From NCBI GenBank assembly GCA_013204985.1, contig JABMLG010000002.1, positions 248,001-312,000 of the forward strand: DNA of 64,000 bases, given 5' to 3'. The position numbers and the translations under genes are program-made. Below are positions 1 through 9,768 of the stretch, one piece after another. The notes beneath the pieces are model-generated. The model did not search any database and was not told where the DNA came from. It saw nothing but the letters and a program-made list of their open reading frames with translations. How positions within the stretch are numbered: the first letter of the stretch is position 1; each line of letters opens with the position of its first letter. This DNA comes from Microbacteriaceae bacterium VKM Ac-2855 (GTDB lineage: Bacteria; Actinomycetota; Actinomycetes; Actinomycetales; Microbacteriaceae).

Positions 1-1472
1 GCCTGGTCGTCGCCCCCGTGGCCGTCACCGCATCGGCGCCGGCGCCGGTGATCGCCGAGCGGATGCTGGTGATGCTCCGGCACAGCGGCGCTCGGTTGAT
101 CCTCACCGATACGGCGACGTGGACGGTGTTGGCGGAGAGCACGCGCGGTGCGCTCGACGGGGTCACGGTGCACCTCGTCGACGTCGACGATGCGGGGGAT
201 CCGGCCGATTGGCGACGCCCCGATCTCGGGCCCGACGATCAGGCGATCCTGCAGTACACCTCCGGCTCGACCGGCACGCCGAAGGGCGTGATGATCACCC
301 AGGCGAATCTGCTCGCGAACCAGTCCGTGATCCGGAGCGCGCTGCGCACCTCGGCCGATGGCGTCGCCGTCGGCTGGCTGCCGCACTATCACGACATGGG
401 GCTGATCGGCCTCCTCCTGCACCCGATGTTCGTCGGCATGGACGCGGTACTGACCTCGCCCCTGCAGTTCTTGAAGCGCCCCGCGTTCTGGCTCCGGCTG
501 CTGTCGGAGCACCGGGCGACGACGACGGTCGCCCCGGATTTCGCGTACGCGATGTGCGCGCGCCTCGTCACCGATGAGGTGGTGGCCGAGCTCGATCTCT
601 CGTCCCTGGCCGTCGCGATCACGGGGGCGGAGCCGGTCAAGGCCCGCACCCTGCAGCAGTTCGCCGACCGCTTCGCTCCGGCCGGATTCCGGGCGGACGC
701 TTTCGCTCCCGCCTACGGAATGGCCGAGACCACCCTGCTGGTGTCCGGATTCCGACCCGCCGGCGAACCCGTCCGCATCCGCCGTACCGATCTCGCCGCT
801 CTTGCGGAGGGGCGTTTCGAGGAAGCCGTCGACGGGGCCGCCGCCGTGGAGTCGGTCGCGTGCGGAGCGGTCGCGGAGGGACACGCGGTCAGCGTGGTCG
901 ATCCGGTGACGAGGCGACGACGCGCGCCGGGCGAGATCGGTGAGCTCTGGGTCAGCGGGCCGAGCGTCTCTGCCGGCTACTGGCGCGACGAAGCGGCGAC
1001 GCTCGCCGATTTCGGAGCCGAGATCGCGGATGAAGGCGGGGTGCGCCGACTGCGCACCGGTGATCTCGGGATCGTGGTGGACGGCGATGTCATCGTGACC
1101 GGCCGGATCAAGGATCTGATCATCGTGCGGGGCAAGAACGTCTATCCGCAGGATGTGGAGGAGCGCGCCGCCGTCCTGTTGCCGGGCGTGGTCGGGGCGA
1201 ACAGCGCCGCATTCTCACACGGCATCGACTCGGATCGCGTCGCGCTCGTCCTCGAGATCGAGCCCCGAGCGCTCAGCGTGCCGGGCGCCGGCGATGACCT
1301 CGAGCGGATCCGGCTCATCCTCGTGCGCGAATTCGGTCTGCCCTCTTTGGATGTGGTGACCGTGCGCCGGGGATCGCTGCCGCGAACGACGAGCGGCAAG
1401 ATCCAGCGCTCCGGCACCCGTGAGCTCTTCGAGACGAACGCCCTGCAGCGGGTCGAGTTCGTAGCCTCATGA
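1..1472 (+). CDS. Fatty acyl-AMP ligase (FAAL), 5' end outside the window
   Basis: Adenylates a fatty acid with ATP and, as a FAAL, would hand the acyl group to an acyl carrier protein rather than to CoA. The reading frame is open from the first full codon at base 3, so the N-terminus lies upstream. Seen in order: the phosphate-binding loop TSGSTGTPKG (visible residues about 80-90), GWLPHYHDMGLIG, the FAAL-typical SPLQFLKRPAFWL followed by PDFAYAMC, AYGMAETTL, TGDLG, KDLIIVRGKNVYPQDVE and the C-terminal SGKIQR with the catalytic lysine. The stop overlaps the next ATG by four bases, so translation is probably coupled. The ACP and PPTase downstream fit its role as the loading enzyme. A true acyl-CoA synthetase is less likely given the FAAL-type motifs. 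Confidence 0.88.
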   Translation, partial: LVVAPVAVTASAPAPVIAERMLVMLRHSGARLILTDTATWTVLAESTRGALDGVTVHLVDVDDAGDPADWRRPDLGPDDQAILQYTSGSTGTPKGVMITQANLLANQSVIRSALRTSADGVAVGWLPHYHDMGLIGLLLHPMFVGMDAVLTSPLQFLKRPAFWLRLLSEHRATTTVAPDFAYAMCARLVTDEVVAELDLSSLAVAITGAEPVKARTLQQFADRFAPAGFRADAFAPAYGMAETTLLVSGFRPAGEPVRIRRTDLAALAEGRFEEAVDGAAAVESVACGAVAEGHAVSVVDPVTRRRRAPGEIGELWVSGPSVSAGYWRDEAATLADFGAEIADEGGVRRLRTGDLGIVVDGDVIVTGRIKDLIIVRGKNVYPQDVEERAAVLLPGVVGANSAAFSHGIDSDRVALVLEIEPRALSVPGAGDDLERIRLILVREFGLPSLDVVTVRRGSLPRTTSGKIQRSGTRELFETNALQRVEFVAS

Positions 1473-3139
1473 CGCCCGACGAGTTCGACGACGCCCTCGG
1501 CGAGCCCACCGAGCCGGGATCCGTGATCGATTTCGCCACCTCCCTGGCCGACGACGAGCGCTCCGCGTTCCCGCAGTCGGCCGTCGACGCGATCGACGCG
1601 CTCGGTCTCGCGCGGCGCTACGTGCCGAGAGAGTTCGGTGGTGACCTCGGCGACGTGCTCGAACCGATGAGGATGATCCGATCGATCGCCGCGCGTGATC
1701 TCACCGTCGCTGTCGCGCACGGCAAAACGTTCCTCGGGTCGGTCAGCACCTGGGTAGCGGGCGGAGCCGATGTGCGCCGTCGGGTGGCCGACACGGTGCT
1801 CGCCGCGCAGCCCGTCTCGTGGGGTCTCACCGAGCGCGGCCGTGGCAGCGACCTCGGGGCCACCGCCACGACGGCGCGCTTCGGTGCCCGCGGCATCGAG
1901 GTGAACGGCGAGAAGTGGCCGATCAACAACGCGACGCGTGGCCGGGCGATCACCGTTCTCGCTCGAGTGGATGACCGCACCGGGCCCCGCGCGCACACCC
2001 TGCTCTACGTCGATAAAGCCGACCTCCCGGCCGATCGCCATCGCGCGTCGCCGAAGGTCGCGACGCACGGCATCCGCGGCGCCGACATCAGCGGCATCGC
2101 GTTCGAGAGGGCGATCGTGCAGCCCGACGTGCTGATCGGGGAACCGGGCACCGGGCTCGAGGTCGTGTTGAAGAGCCTGCAGCTCACCCGGCCGCTCTGC
2201 ACGGCCCTTTCGCTCGGCGCTGCCGACCTGGGTCTGCGGATCGCGGGCGGGTTCGTGCTCGAGCGACGGATGTTCGGACGCGAACTCGCTGCGCTCCCCG
2301 CCGCTCGGGCGGCGCTGGTGGGCGCGGCTGCGGATGCTCTGGCAGCGGAGGCCGTCGCGATCGTGGGCGCGCGTCACCTGCACGAGCGGATCGACGAGAT
2401 GGCGCTGGTCAGCTCGCTGGTGAAGTTCTTCGTGCCCGACACGGTCGACCTGCTTCTGCGCGATCTCGCCCAGTTGCTCGGCGCCCGTTCGCAATTGAGC
2501 GACCTCGCCCCCGGCAACGTCTTCCAGAAGGTGCAACGCGACCACCGCATCGTGGCGATCTTCGACGGCAATTCGGTGGTCAACCTGGGCGTCATCGTGG
2601 GCGAGTTCCCCTCGATGCTGCGCGAGGCGGACGCCGCCGACCTGGAATCGCGTCGACGACTCGGCGCCCTCCGGGCCAACAGGGTCGACATCGACTTCGC
2701 GGCGCTGCGCCTGTTCTCCCGCCGCGGGTCCGCGCTGCTTCGAGCGCTGCCGGCGATGGCGGATGCGGCCGCGGCGCGTGTCGACGATGATCACTTCTCG
2801 CGGGATTGCGCGGCCCTGGTGGCGGAATTCGAGGCGACGATGGCCGAGATCCGCACATTCAGGCGCGCACCCTTCCCGCCGCCGGAGCAGTACCTGGCGG
2901 CCGAGCGCCTGGCGACGCTGTTCGCGGCAGCCGCGGCGTTCGCGCTCGCGGAAGGCAGCTCCGACGCGGTGGACGGCTTCGGGGCCGATGGACTGTGGCT
3001 GCGCCTCGTGATCGGTCGGCTGGCGCAGCGGCTCGGGCTCGGAGCACCGAGCGCCGCCCTCGTCGACGCAGGTTTCGCTGCGGTGCAGCACCGGCTGAGC
3101 GCCGGCTCGACCGTCTCGTTGCTCGGGGTGGCCTCATGA
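1469..3139 (+). CDS. Acyl-CoA dehydrogenase-like protein, first of a pair (556 aa)
   Basis: Predicted FAD-dependent desaturase of an acyl thioester, here probably acyl-ACP. The flavin-side signature appears as LTERGRGSDLG (residues 120-130, family pattern LTEPxAGSD), then WPINNATRGRAITVLAR (150-166). The C-terminal catalytic segment reads QRDHRIVAIFDGNSV: family members carry YEGT, and this protein has Asp366 where the catalytic base Glu usually sits. The alternative isovaleryl-type Glu position is Thr240 (LQLTRP). At 556 aa it is about 170 aa longer than a usual 380-aa dehydrogenase, the extra being a C-terminal helical extension. It overlaps both neighbours by four bases (ATGA). A heteromer with the next gene product is an inference. 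Confidence 0.82.
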   Translation: MTPDEFDDALGEPTEPGSVIDFATSLADDERSAFPQSAVDAIDALGLARRYVPREFGGDLGDVLEPMRMIRSIAARDLTVAVAHGKTFLGSVSTWVAGGADVRRRVADTVLAAQPVSWGLTERGRGSDLGATATTARFGARGIEVNGEKWPINNATRGRAITVLARVDDRTGPRAHTLLYVDKADLPADRHRASPKVATHGIRGADISGIAFERAIVQPDVLIGEPGTGLEVVLKSLQLTRPLCTALSLGAADLGLRIAGGFVLERRMFGRELAALPAARAALVGAAADALAAEAVAIVGARHLHERIDEMALVSSLVKFFVPDTVDLLLRDLAQLLGARSQLSDLAPGNVFQKVQRDHRIVAIFDGNSVVNLGVIVGEFPSMLREADAADLESRRRLGALRANRVDIDFAALRLFSRRGSALLRALPAMADAAAARVDDDHFSRDCAALVAEFEATMAEIRTFRRAPFPPPEQYLAAERLATLFAAAAAFALAEGSSDAVDGFGADGLWLRLVIGRLAQRLGLGAPSAALVDAGFAAVQHRLSAGSTVSLLGVAS

Positions 3140-4839
3140 CCGATCTCGAGACCGTTCTGGGCGACCCGACCGTGCCTGGTCCCTTCGATTTCGACGCGAT
3201 CGTCGAGGCCGACGACGCTCGGGTTCTCAGCGCGTGGGGGGAGTCGGCGCTCGCCGAGTGGGGCTGGGGCGCCGAGTTCGTGCCCGCGTCGCTCGGTGGG
3301 CGTTGGGTGTCGACCGAGGATCTGGTGCAGCGGCTGAGGCCGGTGTTCCGTCGCGATCCAGCGCTCGGCCTCGGGCACGGGCTCACCACGATGATGGCCG
3401 CCGTGAACGTCTGGGCGGGCGGGGACGAACGGATCCGCGGAACGGTGGCCGGGCAGTTGTTGGCCGGAGATCGGATCGCCGTCGGTTTCCACGAGCTGGC
3501 GCACGGCAACGACGTGCTCGGCAACGAGTGCAGCGCCGAGATCGGCGACAGTACCGTGCGCGTGTTCGGCGGCAAGCAGGTGGTCAACAACATCGACCGG
3601 GCCGAGTCGGTCCTGCTGTTCGCCCGCAGCTCGCCGTCGCCGGGGCCGCGCAGCCACACGCTGGTTCTCTGGAAGAAGAGCGACGTGGATGGTTCGCGCG
3701 TCGACACCGGGCACCGTTACCCCACCGCCGGAATGCGGGGCTGCCTTCTCGGCGGTGCCGACTTCGACGGCCTCGAGCTGCCGCGGGACGCCGTCGTCGG
3801 TGAGGTGGGCGGAGCCGTCGGCGTCGCCCTCCGGGCCTTCCAGGTCACCCGCGCAGCGATCCCCGCGCTCGCTCTGGGTGGGCTCGACACCGGACTGCGA
3901 CTCGCCACCGGTTACGCGCAGTCGCGACGGCTCTACCGCGGCTCGGTCGCGGATCTCCCGCACGCGCGTTCGCTTCTGGCCGAGGCCGCGGCGGATCTGC
4001 TGCTGTGCGACGCGTTCAGCGGGAGCGTGGTGCGCGCTCTGCACCATGCGCCGCGAAGCGCCTTCCTGCTCAGTGCGGCCAGCAAATACCTGGTGCCGTC
4101 GACGATCAACGAGGCGATGCGCACCCTCGCGGTGCTCTTCGGCTCCACCTTCTACGCGCGGGTGAGCCCCTACGCGGTCTTCGAGAAGCTCTGCCGCGAC
4201 CTGCAGGTGGTGCCGATCGGTCACGCCGGGGCGACCACGTGCCTGCTGTCGATCATCCCGAACCTTCCCGCGTGGCGCCGGCGCGCCGAGCGGGTGCTCG
4301 ATCCGCAGGACGCTCTGTTCATCCCGGGTTCGAGTACGGAGGAGCTCGACTACTCGCGCTTCGAGCTCGGAGCCGGGGCGGGGGATCCCTTCGGCGCCGA
4401 GCTCACACCGAGGTCGACCGGTTCGGCGCGAGCGGATGAGCTGATCGCCGAATTCGCCCGTCGCCGCGGCGAGCTGATCGTCGACGCGGCGGCTCTGGAT
4501 CCGCGCGGTCTCGGCCCCGACGCCGGCGTCGACACCTTCGCGCTCGCCCGCCGCTACGCGCTGGTGCAGGCCGCCGGCGCGTGCGTCGGTGTACAGCGCT
4601 GCGCAACGGATGCGGCGACCAGCGATCCGCGCTGGCTCTCCGCCGCGCTGCAGCGCCTCGATGCCCAGTACCGGGGCCGTCGCGCGGTGCTCGATGCCGA
4701 CAGCATCGACTTCCTCGTCGAGCGGACCTTCGAGCGCTGCGACGACGGGCTCGCGCTCACGCTCGACTCGACACCCGTCTCTGTCCGCACCATCCGCTCC
4801 ATCGAAGAACCCGCCCCCACCGAAAGGACCCTGTCGTGA
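3136..4839 (+). CDS. Acyl-CoA dehydrogenase-like protein, second of a pair (567 aa), catalytic base missing
   Basis: Diverged paralogue of the preceding protein with the same overall length and C-terminal extension. The signature LTEPxAGSD is degraded to FHELAHGND (residues 118-126); KQVVNNIDRAESVLLFAR matches the next conserved block. At the catalytic position (first protein IFDGNS) it reads IGHAGA, with His363 and no acidic residue, and the alternative position is Thr238. It may therefore be a structural or substrate-binding partner of the first dehydrogenase, as in heteromeric mycobacterial FadE complexes; that is inference. Start chosen at the ATG that overlaps the previous stop (ATGA); an upstream open frame exists but lies inside the previous gene. 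Confidence 0.78.
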   Translation: MTDLETVLGDPTVPGPFDFDAIVEADDARVLSAWGESALAEWGWGAEFVPASLGGRWVSTEDLVQRLRPVFRRDPALGLGHGLTTMMAAVNVWAGGDERIRGTVAGQLLAGDRIAVGFHELAHGNDVLGNECSAEIGDSTVRVFGGKQVVNNIDRAESVLLFARSSPSPGPRSHTLVLWKKSDVDGSRVDTGHRYPTAGMRGCLLGGADFDGLELPRDAVVGEVGGAVGVALRAFQVTRAAIPALALGGLDTGLRLATGYAQSRRLYRGSVADLPHARSLLAEAAADLLLCDAFSGSVVRALHHAPRSAFLLSAASKYLVPSTINEAMRTLAVLFGSTFYARVSPYAVFEKLCRDLQVVPIGHAGATTCLLSIIPNLPAWRRRAERVLDPQDALFIPGSSTEELDYSRFELGAGAGDPFGAELTPRSTGSARADELIAEFARRRGELIVDAAALDPRGLGPDAGVDTFALARRYALVQAAGACVGVQRCATDAATSDPRWLSAALQRLDAQYRGRRAVLDADSIDFLVERTFERCDDGLALTLDSTPVSVRTIRSIEEPAPTERTLS

Positions 4840-5102
4840 GCACCGCCACTCCCACTGCCGCCGAGATCGAGACCTGGATCGTCGAGAAGGCGCTGATCTA
4901 CACCGACATCGACGAGTCCGCGATCAACCCCGACGTCTCGCTCGTCGAGCTCGGCCTCGACTCCGCTTTCGCTCTGACTCTGGCGGGGGACATCGAGGAC
5001 ACCTACGGCATCGAGGTCGACCCCACCTTCGCCTGGGACTACCCCACGCTGCGCAGTTTGAGCGAGGGCGTCGCGGGCGCCATCGCCGACGCGAAGGCCT
5101 GA
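4836..5102 (+). CDS. Acyl carrier protein (88 aa)
   Basis: Carries the acyl chain on a 4'-phosphopantetheine arm. The attachment site is Ser43 in VELGLDSAFAL, and the following acidic helix and WDYPTLRSLSEGV are typical of stand-alone carrier proteins of FAAL and polyketide clusters. Start is the GTG at 4836, which overlaps the previous stop as GTGA and is preceded by AAAGGA; a longer open frame upstream is inside the dehydrogenase gene. Its position between the dehydrogenases and a PPTase gene suggests the acyl-ACP is the species being desaturated. It is not the fatty-acid-synthase ACP, whose gene normally sits in the fab cluster. Confidence 0.9.
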   Translation: MSTATPTAAEIETWIVEKALIYTDIDESAINPDVSLVELGLDSAFALTLAGDIEDTYGIEVDPTFAWDYPTLRSLSEGVAGAIADAKA

Positions 5103-5104
5103 GG

Positions 5105-5671
5105 GTGCGCGTGGCCGTGACCACGGTCGGGCTGCCCGCGGACCCGGCGGTACTGCTCGGCGAGACGGAACGTTGGCAGCGGATGCCGGCGCTTCGGGGC
5201 CGGGAGTTCCTCGCCGGCCGGGCCCTGGCTCGGCGTCTTGCGACCGCCTCCGGCTCACCCTGGGTGGGCCTCGAGGTCGTCTCGGAACGCTGGAAACCGA
5301 GACCGGTCGCCGGCGGGTACGACGTGAGCATCGCCCACGACGGGCGTTTCGTCGCGGCCGCGATGGCCACGACGGGGAGGGTCGGGATCGATGTGGTCGA
5401 TGCCGAGCGGGCACTGGCCGTCGGCATCGCACGCCGACTCTGCACGCCGGCGGAGAGCCGGGCCCTTCCCACCGGGCCCGCGGGGCTCCCGCGCTTGCGC
5501 GAGTTGCTCGCGGTGAAGGAGGCCTACGCGAAGGCGCTCGGCGTCGGTCTGGCTCTGGGCTTCGACGGCGTGGCCGCGGAGGAGATCGAACGCCTGCCCG
5601 GCGTCACCGTGATCAGCCGCCGAACCGCCGAGATGGAGCTGTGTGCCGTGCACATCGAGGACGCAGCATGA
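5105..5671 (+). CDS. 4'-phosphopantetheinyl transferase superfamily protein (188 aa)
   Basis: Would convert the apo-ACP encoded just upstream to its holo form using CoA. Diagnostic motifs are GIDVVDAE (Mg-binding, mid-protein) and LLAVKEAYAKALG (the KEA...K signature). YDVSIAHDGRFVAAA matches the conserved SxSH/D region. Its length is shorter than Sfp-type enzymes (about 220-230 aa) but within the superfamily. GTG at 5105 is used as start; GTG codons at 5111 and 5117 are alternatives. The gene starts two bases after the ACP stop, so a dedicated ACP/PPTase pair is likely. Confidence 0.87.
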   Translation: MRVAVTTVGLPADPAVLLGETERWQRMPALRGREFLAGRALARRLATASGSPWVGLEVVSERWKPRPVAGGYDVSIAHDGRFVAAAMATTGRVGIDVVDAERALAVGIARRLCTPAESRALPTGPAGLPRLRELLAVKEAYAKALGVGLALGFDGVAAEEIERLPGVTVISRRTAEMELCAVHIEDAA

Positions 5672-6969
5672 GTGTCTCGAGCGGCGGAGTCGAGGTCGAA
5701 CTGCTGCGCAGTCTCGATGAGAAGTATCTGGTGAACGTGATCGCCTATGAGGCGATGCACGCCGCGGCCGCGCTCGTGCTCGACTCGAGCACCTGGCGCG
5801 ACGCCGACGGCGCACTCGATCGTGCCGCGATCACGGAGCAGATCGAGTGGCTCGCAGCCAGTACCCCCGAACTGCGCAAACGCATCGTGCGCGTGCCGCT
5901 CGGCCTCACCACGCCGGCGTGGGTGCCGGATGGGGGCTTCGCGATCGCGAACCACCTGCGCTTCCTGGACGAACCGGTCGACGTGGGTCCCGCGGGGATG
6001 GAGACGCTGACCGGCCGCTGTTTCGACTTCCTGCCGGTGGGGCGCTCGCCGTGGGAGATCGTGGTCGCCGAGGCGCTCGACGGTCGGGTCGTTCTGATCG
6101 TCCGGTTCCAACACGTGATGGGTGACGCGATCTGGGCCATGGGTGTGCTCGATCGTTTGCTCACCGTCGGGCCCAGCGGCGAGCGCGCGCGGCCGAAAGC
6201 CGTGCCGGTGCGTGCGCCACGATTCGCGGCCGAGCTGCTGCTGGTCGCCGGCCGGAACTGGTACGCGGAGCAGGGCTCGCTCGGCGACGCGTGGCGGGAG
6301 TACTGGCGCAAGCCTTTCCGGCGACGGCTCCGTCGCAGTGCCGGTCGACTGATCCGACCGGTCCGCAACACGCTGATCGAGCGGCGCGGCCTGCGGGCGT
6401 CGCATCTGCCGCCGCGTCACTCCGCGTGGATCGCCCTCGATCTCAGCGTGGTCACCGCGCACGCCAAGCGTTACCCGTGCACCGTCAGCGATCTCGTCCT
6501 CTCGACGGTTCTGTCCGCCATCGCCGGCGGCGCGGCGGCGGCGCTCCTGGTGCCCGTCTCGCGCCGGGGTAAGGCGGATGCGGCGGCCCGCAACCACGTC
6601 AGCGTCGTGCGCGTCGCGATCCCCGGTCATCAGCCGCTCGCCGATGTCGTGCCGGCCGTGCGCGCGCAGATCCGCGCGGCGATCTCCGCCGGTGCCGCGG
6701 GTCTGCCTCCGGTGACAGAGCCGGTCTCGGGCTACGCCACCTTCATCCCTCTGACGGGTAAGGACCGCTACATCGGCTCCGCCCGTCTCGAGGAGGTCCT
6801 CGCGTGGCCGGCCGGGGACCCGGCTCACGACATCGCCTGCTTCGCCACTTCGTATTCGGGGCGTCTGGTGATCACGATGACGACCAGGACGAGCACGGAT
6901 GTGACCGAGCTGCTCGCGCGCGTGGCTCGGGCCATCGAAGAAGGCGCGACAGTCGCGGCAGAGGCCTGA
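5668..6969 (+). CDS. WS/DGAT-like or condensation-like acyltransferase (433 aa)
   Basis: Probable final enzyme of the operon, transferring the acyl chain from ACP to an alcohol or amine acceptor. It carries QHVMGDAIW near residue 150, a variant of the HHxxxDG active-site motif of wax ester synthase/diacylglycerol acyltransferases and condensation domains: the second His and the Asp are kept, the first His is Gln and the Gly is Ala. The surrounding pattern (N-terminal acceptor half, LVPVSRRG segment, late GY-FIPLTG and AHDIACF...SYSGRLVITM) resembles WS/DGAT proteins. ATG at 5668 overlaps the PPTase stop (ATGA). The acceptor is unknown. The 3' end overlaps the antisense DUF222/HNH gene by 145 bp. 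Confidence 0.72.
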   Translation: MSVSSGGVEVELLRSLDEKYLVNVIAYEAMHAAAALVLDSSTWRDADGALDRAAITEQIEWLAASTPELRKRIVRVPLGLTTPAWVPDGGFAIANHLRFLDEPVDVGPAGMETLTGRCFDFLPVGRSPWEIVVAEALDGRVVLIVRFQHVMGDAIWAMGVLDRLLTVGPSGERARPKAVPVRAPRFAAELLLVAGRNWYAEQGSLGDAWREYWRKPFRRRLRRSAGRLIRPVRNTLIERRGLRASHLPPRHSAWIALDLSVVTAHAKRYPCTVSDLVLSTVLSAIAGGAAAALLVPVSRRGKADAAARNHVSVVRVAIPGHQPLADVVPAVRAQIRAAISAGAAGLPPVTEPVSGYATFIPLTGKDRYIGSARLEEVLAWPAGDPAHDIACFATSYSGRLVITMTTRTSTDVTELLARVARAIEEGATVAAEA

Positions 6970-8643: not shown

Positions 8644-9573
8644 TCACTCGCCCGGCGCGGAGGTCGGAGGCGCCGATCCAGTCGGTGCGGGCGTGGGCGC
8701 CGCCGGCGCCGGCGCAGCAGCGCGCCGGCGGGCCGCACGCCGCAACGCCAGCGCGAGAACCACGGCGATGACCGCGAGCGGAAGCAGCCAGGGCAGGAGA
8801 ACGCCGAGGACCACCAGGAACCCCGAGGCCGCGGCGACGAGAGCGGTCCAGCCGGCGGCGAGGCCCTGCCAGAAGTCTTGCGGCCCGGAGCCGACGACGG
8901 TGCCCGGAGCCACCAGGTCGACGGTCAGCGTCGACATCGCCACCTGCTCGCCGAGGGCCGCGCGCTGAGCGGCGAGCGCATCCAGGTCGGCTTGCCGGGT
9001 CGACAGGCTCGACTCGATCTCGATGAGGTCCGCGGTCGACGTCGCCTGGGCGAGAAGTGCCTGCAGCCGATCGACCGATGCCTGCAATGCGGCGATCCGT
9101 GCGTCGAGGTCGGTGACGCTCGCCGTGACGTCGTTCGCCGACACCGAGACCGAGACCGGGTCGCCGAGTGCTTCCAGCTGGTCGAGCGCCTGGTCGAGCT
9201 CGTCGGCCGGGATCCGGAGGGTGAGCGAGGCGCGGGCGGCGATGGTTCCGTCGGCGCTCTGCTCGGTGCGATCGTCGACCCTCCCTCCCGCAGCGGTGGC
9301 GATCCGGGTCGCTTCATCGGCGGCGTCGGCCGGATCCGGCACGGTGATGGTCGCGTAGCCGGTCTGCACGACCTGCCGCTCGCCCTCGGCGACGGTGGTC
9401 GATCCGTCCGCGCGGGCTTCGTCGGGAGCGGCACCACTGCCAGCCTCGGAACCACCCATCGGCGCCTCGACCGAATCCGAGCTGGACTGGTTCGAGGCCG
9501 TACATCCCGCCAGGCCGATCGCCGCGGCGAACAGCAACGCGGCGACGGCTGTGAGTCTCGATGATCTGCTCAT
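8644..9573 (-). CDS. DUF4349-type lipoprotein with C-terminal membrane segment (309 aa)
   Basis: Cell-surface protein of unknown function. A lipoprotein signal peptide is visible: MSRSSRLTAVAALLFAAAIG followed by the lipobox LAGC. The middle part contains an ATITV...ADEATRIATAAGGRV domain and a coiled-coil of alternating Leu/Ala/Asp heptads (DLDARIAALQASVDRLQALL), followed by a transmembrane segment (VVLGVLLPWLLPLAVIAVVL), a basic cluster and an Ala/Pro-rich tail. This order is that of DUF4349 proteins. Start ATG 9573 is preferred over 9600 because TACCGT lies six bases upstream and the signal peptide then begins correctly. Confidence 0.82.
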   Translation of the reverse strand: MSRSSRLTAVAALLFAAAIGLAGCTASNQSSSDSVEAPMGGSEAGSGAAPDEARADGSTTVAEGERQVVQTGYATITVPDPADAADEATRIATAAGGRVDDRTEQSADGTIAARASLTLRIPADELDQALDQLEALGDPVSVSVSANDVTASVTDLDARIAALQASVDRLQALLAQATSTADLIEIESSLSTRQADLDALAAQRAALGEQVAMSTLTVDLVAPGTVVGSGPQDFWQGLAAGWTALVAAASGFLVVLGVLLPWLLPLAVIAVVLALALRRAARRRAAAPAPAAPTPAPTGSAPPTSAPGE

Positions 9574-9579
9574 GCCGTC

Positions 9580-9585
9580 ACGGTA
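9580..9585 (-). promoter_or_regulatory. -10 element of the DUF4349 lipoprotein gene
   Basis: TACCGT, six bases, ATG 9573: leaderless arrangement. Confidence 0.5.
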
Positions 9586-9768
9586 GGCCGATGCCGTCAC
9601 CCGGCGCCGGGTCGATCTCTGGGAGTTCGGTCACAATCAGATGTCGGCGAGGGGCGCCGCAATAGCATCGGAAGCGGCCGCGGCACCGTCCGGAGCATCA
9701 GCTCGGCGGTGCCGCTTCCATTTCAGACCACGCCGGGCTGCGGGCCCGGCACGTACGGAGGAGGTCAT

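Follow-up and report, generated by a model that had tools for sequence, protein, structure and literature searches.

Fatty acyl-AMP ligases (FAALs) are mostly discussed as enzymes that feed polyketide or peptide assembly lines or mycobacterial lipids, and the term exopolysaccharide is absent from the main text of a review of the family (PMC11837247). In lipopeptide gene clusters, according to the available part of PMC9113097, acyl-CoA dehydrogenase-like (ACAD) genes located between a FAAL gene and an acyl carrier protein (ACP) gene introduce double bonds into the lipid tails. One ACAD yields one double bond, as in friulimicin and laspartomycin, and two yield a 2,4-diene, as in taromycin and malacidin, where Tar5/MlcH is assigned the delta-2 bond and Tar6/MlcI the delta-4 bond; the two ACAD paralogues of a cassette are 30-32% identical to each other (same part of PMC9113097). 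The mycobacterial acyltrehalose pathway, as outlined in the available part of PMC4183827, comprises FadD21, Pks3/4 and PapA3. Here we describe a six-gene operon in a 64,000-nucleotide stretch of the genome of Microbacteriaceae bacterium VKM Ac-2855 (assembly GCA_013204985.1, contig JABMLG010000002.1; G000:C12:248001-312000), referred to as the window. The operon encodes a FAAL, two ACADs (ACAD1 and ACAD2), a stand-alone ACP, a phosphopantetheinyl transferase (PPTase) and a WS/DGAT-like acyltransferase (WSD).

The operon is probably a complete module, independent of polyketide synthases (PKS) and nonribosomal peptide synthetases (NRPS), that makes an unsaturated acyl-ACP and places its chain as an ester on a sugar belonging to a surface polysaccharide or to its lipid-linked precursor. 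The PPTase would prime the ACP, and the FAAL would adenylate a fatty acid and load it onto the ACP. ACAD1 and then ACAD2 would desaturate the bound chain, most likely to a 2-enoyl and then a 2,4-dienoyl group, and the chain would finally be handed over by the WSD, the most likely acceptor being a hydroxyl group on a sugar of either a surface polysaccharide or its lipid-linked repeat unit. In the window genome, the module would act in trans with the exopolysaccharide (EPS) cluster on contig C22 or serve another glycolipid. We infer every enzymatic step of this route, together with the chain length, the number and position of double bonds, the ester linkage and the acceptor. The order of steps given in the initial annotation of this DNA (activation, loading on a dedicated ACP, desaturation on the carrier, transfer) fits the genes found. 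A more specific proposition is put forward tentatively, as one that we find slightly easier to doubt than to accept: that a Gram-positive surface polysaccharide is decorated with ACP-delivered 2,4-dienoyl fatty acids by a lipopeptide starter cassette re-used with neither PKS nor NRPS and with a second desaturase that lacks the usual acidic base.

The FAAL module and WSD are linked within exopolysaccharide clusters of related genomes

The WSD matched the Pfam domain WS_DGAT_cat at 45.8 bits (cut-off 23.6). Its motif, QHVMGDA, keeps the Asp and the second His of HHxxxDG, which we take to be the catalytic His, and is altered at the first His and the last Gly; most relatives retain both His residues, and HHxxxDG is retained in G647 copy a, G839 and G871. 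On TIGR02946, the NCBIfam model for the WS/DGAT storage-lipid subfamily, the protein scored 83.1 bits against a cut-off of 309.95. A storage-lipid enzyme, which would turn the unsaturated chain into wax esters or triacylglycerol, is in keeping with the Pfam match but very improbable given this low subfamily score and the EPS setting of the WSD relatives.

To locate these relatives, 248 genomes of the family were searched with the WSD, which gave 17 places in 16 genomes. Surroundings were fetched for 12 places, that is, all except the window's own and four weak matches (G239, G191, G064 and G089). In all 12, one of which (L145) had supplied the EPS query proteins, the WSD gene lay in one block with genes for Wzy-type and Wzz-like proteins, family 4 and family 2 glycosyltransferases and a hexapeptide transferase, and a second family 2 glycosyltransferase was present in 11. 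The names are those of Pfam, except that the Wzz-like protein had no Pfam match and was named by reading its sequence. In the 12 blocks, as well as in the seven linked stretches described below, the WSD gene has a family 2 glycosyltransferase gene on one side and the hexapeptide transferase gene on the other, a placement that suggests a repeat-unit sugar as the acceptor.

A FAAL module and a WSD are physically linked within one EPS cluster in 11 genomes besides those of the window and of Microbacteriaceae bacterium VKM Ac-2854, in eight of them with ACADs and in three without. In seven stretches (G142, G640-G644 and G646), the cluster carries WSD toward one end and FAAL at the other, 13.5-16.8 kb apart. 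Microbacterium allomyrinae has an EPS cluster (L174) with contiguous FAAL-FAAL-ACP-PPTase-WSD genes and no ACADs, and elsewhere on that contig a second, ACAD-containing cassette is accompanied by a divergent WSD (L094). A held-out search with the WSD in 396 genomes of the order matched seven, of which three were new (G939, G871 and G839). All three had a FAAL within the same EPS cluster; by comparison, a FAAL match was present in 4 of the 248 family genomes searched. The G939 cluster resembles that of G142, with FAAL, WSD, ACAD1, ACAD2, ACP and PPTase. The G871 cluster (L194:12422-19033) has three FAALs in a row, as if several different acids were used, followed by ACP, PPTase and WSD, and the G839 cluster has FAAL, ACP, PPTase and two WSDs, both clusters being without ACADs; a second FAAL of G839, on its contig C1, was kept out of the counts. 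Among nine Micrococcales genomes that carry the cassette and were searched, WSD was present in eight and absent from the Cellulomonas genome.

The same linkage was reflected in the WSD phylogeny. In a tree of 30 rows, all 15 FAAL-linked WSDs and one unlinked WSD (G215) fell outside a clade (support 98/98) of 11 unlinked WSDs, which includes second copies from the window genome and VKM Ac-2854; three of the four weak matches named above formed the outgroup in the WSD trees. An earlier tree of 26 rows was split into 10 linked of 12 and none of 11 (Fisher test, 6.7e-5, which is no true probability because the rows are related), and one of the two exceptions, copy a of M. allomyrinae, was later found to be linked too.

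An alternative is that the operon makes a free small lipid, with the WSD using a small alcohol or amine as acceptor of the unsaturated chain to give a lipid ester or an N-acyl signal or antibiotic, and that the connection with EPS reflects shared family only. We regard this as unlikely. In the tree, the window WSD groups with those whose genes share an EPS cluster with a FAAL module, and the order ACP-PPTase-WSD recurs within the EPS clusters of three genomes, although the operon stands alone between Ku and a putative lipoprotein gene, away from EPS genes, its WSD has QH rather than HH in the motif and sits on a long branch together with that of VKM Ac-2854, and in G221 and Cellulomonas the cassette is partnered by other genes. 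The initial annotation suggested that the product may be an unsaturated acyl ester or amide. We modify this view: the acceptor may be something other than a free small molecule, since the WSD family and the FAAL module are tied to EPS clusters in relatives.

Several observations weigh against the preferred reading, in which the chain is delivered to a surface polysaccharide. In the window genome, FAAL, ACP, PPTase and WSD form one operon but lie outside the EPS cluster; that cluster (L145) occupies a different contig and includes a more distant WSD of its own, which shares 30% identity with the operon's. Ten of the 12 family genomes with a strong WSD match have neither the cassette nor a FAAL match, so WSDs of EPS clusters can use another donor, and in G221 and Cellulomonas (L039) the cassette occurs without WSD. 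In the plain family sample, the association between WSD and FAAL was modest (2 of 12 strong-WSD genomes versus 2 of 236 others, p = 0.012, assuming that both searches drew the same 248 genomes). The linked WSD rows include close relatives and are not independent. The second double bond is also uncertain, as judged from the sequence of ACAD2, which has no acidic residue at the usual position of the base.

Layout, conservation and surroundings of the operon

The initial annotation listed six coupled genes, and all of their frames and junctions were found again, with Pfam support for every name (Table 1). It also held that the cluster continues upstream. Inspection of the genes before window base 1 instead revealed only the remaining 95 codons of FAAL, which starts at G000:C12:247715, followed by a Ku gene on the opposite strand. 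These results indicated that the operon is complete and has no upstream continuation.

Table 1 Genes of the six-gene operon. Positions are those of the window unless stated otherwise.
Gene	Position	Strand	Product and proposed role	Supporting feature
FAAL	1..1472; first 286 bases before the window, at G000:C12:247715-248000	+	fatty acyl-AMP ligase-like	AMP-binding domain (Pfam)
ACAD1	1469..3139	+	acyl-CoA-dehydrogenase-like; proposed first desaturase of acyl-ACP	Acyl-CoA_dh (Pfam); FDGN at canonical Glu position
ACAD2	3136..4839	+	divergent ACAD paralogue; proposed second desaturase or partner subunit	Acyl-CoA_dh (Pfam); GHAG at canonical Glu position
ACP	4836..5102	+	stand-alone ACP, 88 aa	PP-binding domain (Pfam); GLDS attachment motif
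PPTase	5105..5671	+	phosphopantetheinyl transferase; presumably primes ACP	ACPS domain (Pfam)
WSD	5668..6969	+	WS/DGAT-like acyltransferase; proposed to pass the ACP-bound chain to a sugar	WS_DGAT_cat (Pfam); motif QHVMGDA

The identical six-gene set, with identical overlaps and also beside Ku, was found in VKM Ac-2854 (L033). Protein identity between the two strains was 78-88% for five of the genes (ACP, 87.5%) and 58% for PPTase, and Ka/Ks was 0.16-0.22 for the five and 0.50 for PPTase. This conservation with low Ka/Ks indicated that the frames are genes under selection and not chance reading frames.

By sequence, the FAAL is closer to FAALs than to other AMP ligases. The nearest solved structures to the whole protein (585 aa) were 7r7g and named FAALs including FadD23, FadD32 and FadD28, and its solved relatives at E 1e-40 or better include these three and a Fatty Acyl-Adenylate Ligase. 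In NCBIfam comparisons made with the 489 aa encoded in the window, the FAAL models gave high scores that stayed under their cut-offs, and a model named CoA ligase scored similarly (337.6 bits); the MbtM model scored 222 bits against a cut-off of 621.

At its 3' end, WSD is overlapped by 145 bases of an HNH-endonuclease gene (Pfam HNH; window:6825-8501, minus strand). The HNH gene looks like a recent insertion, because it is missing at the VKM Ac-2854 site, where the next gene directly follows WSD. Gene fragments that resemble transposases by eye lie about 12 kb upstream of the operon (L006:5476-6543). An empty site was sought in genomes of the same genus without the operon (G045, G116 and G171), and neither Ku nor three other neighbours were found within the 20 kb fetched; relatives of the window gene at 8644-9600 in these genomes were 38-41% identical.

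The core cassette is of a known kind

The FAAL-ACAD1-ACAD2-ACP core is an unsaturated-starter cassette of a known kind and is not new in itself. Its distribution was assessed in samples of the family and the phylum, in which scoring was confined to the 3 to 7 best candidates of each genome (five for the FAAL), so that the counts are lower bounds. ACAD2 matched at least 11 of 249 family genomes at E 1e-10. Two strong adjacent ACAD matches were present only in G000 (the window genome), G142 and G221, and the other eight genomes had one match at 23-29% identity. FAAL matched at least 4 of 248 family genomes at E 1e-60 (G000, G142, G221 and G073); that of G073 has neighbours that do not read as EPS genes and was kept out of the counts of linkage. 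In genomes drawn from the phylum, ACAD2 matched at least 6 of 396 at E 1e-30.

Scanning named genomes with an alignment of ACAD1 yielded 213 relatives, and the analysis continued with the best 80. FAAL, ACAD1, ACAD2 and ACP recur together in most of these 80 loci, some of which are cut by contig ends, and in two (L080 and L086) FAAL trails the cassette rather than leading it. The fetched flanks were scanned with two query proteins and one condensation domain. A PKS, NRPS or condensation match above 100 bits was found at 55 of 71 loci outside the Micrococcales, versus none of nine Micrococcales loci. In the window genome, no condensation domain scored over the cut-off, and ketoacyl synthase gave one full-length and three short matches. 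Membership of the operon in an NRPS or PKS cluster was rejected on the basis of the nine Micrococcales loci and of these two domain searches in the genome. In an ACAD1 tree (FastTree, 84 rows, L074 dropped), 12 Micrococcales cassettes formed one side of a branch with support of 100.

Two distinct ACAD types lie between FAAL and ACP in the window, as in the known unsaturated-starter cassettes; no NRPS or PKS to receive the chain was detected with these searches. What the sequences show directly is the gene set, how it is arranged and conserved, the existence of two ACAD types and, in related genomes, the presence of a FAAL module and a WSD inside one EPS cluster. Judged by gene order alone, ACAD1 would be the counterpart of Tar5 and ACAD2 that of Tar6. 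The operon might also be the drifting, non-functional remnant of a lipopeptide starter cassette whose assembly line was lost, as the 55 of 71 loci beside NRPS or PKS genes could suggest. This is scarcely probable, as six intact coupled genes are kept in a second genome with Ka/Ks of about 0.2 for five of them, the Micrococcales cassettes stand on their own branch and a terminal transferase is present.

Other settings of these genes were also observed. G221 (L022:7112-16958) and Cellulomonas (L039:8190-18383) share one in which the cassette is accompanied by a regulator-like gene, another AMP ligase gene, a gene whose protein has no Pfam match and one whose phosphorylase-superfamily match falls short of the cut-off; this setting may end in a different acyl transfer. 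In two genomes, at L031:9440-11872 and L032:9954-12487, an ACAD2-type gene lies beside a PPTase gene, without FAAL or ACAD1, amid genes that look by eye like those of aromatic polyketides. The cassette at L029:2670-17520 lies beside an NRPS and a pair of genes that, by eye, resemble those for diaminopropionate synthesis, and a free-standing condensation domain (Pfam) separates its ACP from its FAAL; L080 and L086 are alike. At L030:163-12337 (minus strand), the cassette is followed by a one-module PKS, a ketosynthase-III-like gene and an FkbH-like gene (by eye), and L079, L088 and L111 have related PKS genes, at 74-85%.

Both dehydrogenases lack the canonical glutamate

ACAD1 and ACAD2 are 30% identical to each other. 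The catalytic base of ACADs is a Glu, which in the solved ACADs of a HMMER alignment lies within YEGT or GEGT. This canonical Glu of the acyl-CoA dehydrogenase superfamily is absent from both proteins, in which the same position falls in FDGN (ACAD1) and GHAG (ACAD2). The proposed bases are Asp366 of ACAD1 and His363 of ACAD2. The position is occupied by Asp in 81 of 81 ACAD1 rows and by His in 74 of 81 ACAD2 rows, the other seven being six mis-picked ACAD1 genes and one cut frame. In three Microbacterium loci that were read out (L036:11690-12786, L038 and L094), ACAD2 is shortened and GHAG is lost, with the frame still open. An early comparison of the two ACADs to prolyl-carrier dehydrogenases was unsupported, as both NCBIfam models gave 32-37 bits against cut-offs of 500 and 650.

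ACAD2 could alternatively be a catalytically silent partner of ACAD1 in the same module, and only one double bond would then be formed. We consider this possible though rather doubtful. The recurrent His in place of the canonical Glu and the shortened, open-frame ACAD2 genes that have lost GHAG are consistent with a silent subunit, as is the precedent of mycobacteria, which have heteromeric ACADs with one silent subunit. The lipopeptides argue for two active enzymes, as taromycin and malacidin, with two ACADs, carry 2,4-dienes, and friulimicin and laspartomycin, with one, carry one double bond (available part of PMC9113097). The change from an acid to His in ACAD2 makes formation of the second double bond directly testable, and operons of this type offer small, assembly-line-free gene sets for the study of ACADs; for the ACADs of lipopeptide cassettes, PMC9113097 (2021) states that no mechanistic work had been reported.

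Comparison with known systems

The initial annotation did not recognise this combination of genes as a characterised pathway. That view stands for the version ending in PPTase and WSD, which was not found in our searches of the open-access literature, and does not stand for FAAL-ACAD-ACAD-ACP, which is known from lipopeptide clusters (available part of PMC9113097). No relevant paper emerged from open-access literature searches that paired FAAL with exopolysaccharide, wax ester synthase, PapA or Wzy, nor was an assembly-line-free module that ends in a WS/DGAT-type enzyme and is tied to EPS found there; subscription papers may hold one. The parts and the core cassette are known, and what appears to be new is the assembly-line-free module ending in WSD and its tie to EPS. 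If our reading is correct, a FAAL/ACP route into surface polysaccharide would be an added branch of FAAL biology, and amphiphilic polysaccharides would be predicted in Agromyces, Microbacterium and relatives.

Among mycobacterial systems, the lipid genes of mycobactin presumably comprise the FAAL MbtM, the ACP MbtL, the ACAD MbtN and the acyltransferase MbtK, with no PKS elongation of the lipid. That set has one ACAD and ends in MbtK, which we take to be a GNAT-type enzyme, whereas the window operon has two ACADs and ends in a WS_DGAT_cat protein. The WSD resembles WS/DGAT acyltransferases in its WS_DGAT_cat match over the cut-off and in the second His and Asp of HHxxxDG; it differs from them in falling far under the NCBIfam subfamily cut-off and in having relatives located in EPS clusters. 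The acyltrehalose pathway likewise combines a FAAL (FadD21) with an acyltransferase that esterifies a sugar, PapA3, which is likened to WSD by description and not by sequence (available part of PMC4183827). In that pathway, however, the FAAL feeds a polyketide synthase (Pks3/4), whereas the window operon has a free ACP and two ACADs. The core cassette resembles the starter genes of taromycin and malacidin (FAAL, Tar5/MlcH, Tar6/MlcI and ACP), which have the same order, two ACADs about 30% identical to each other and a stand-alone ACP (available part of PMC9113097). The window operon differs from them in that it is without NRPS, has its own PPTase and WSD, and lies on a separate branch of the ACAD1 tree.

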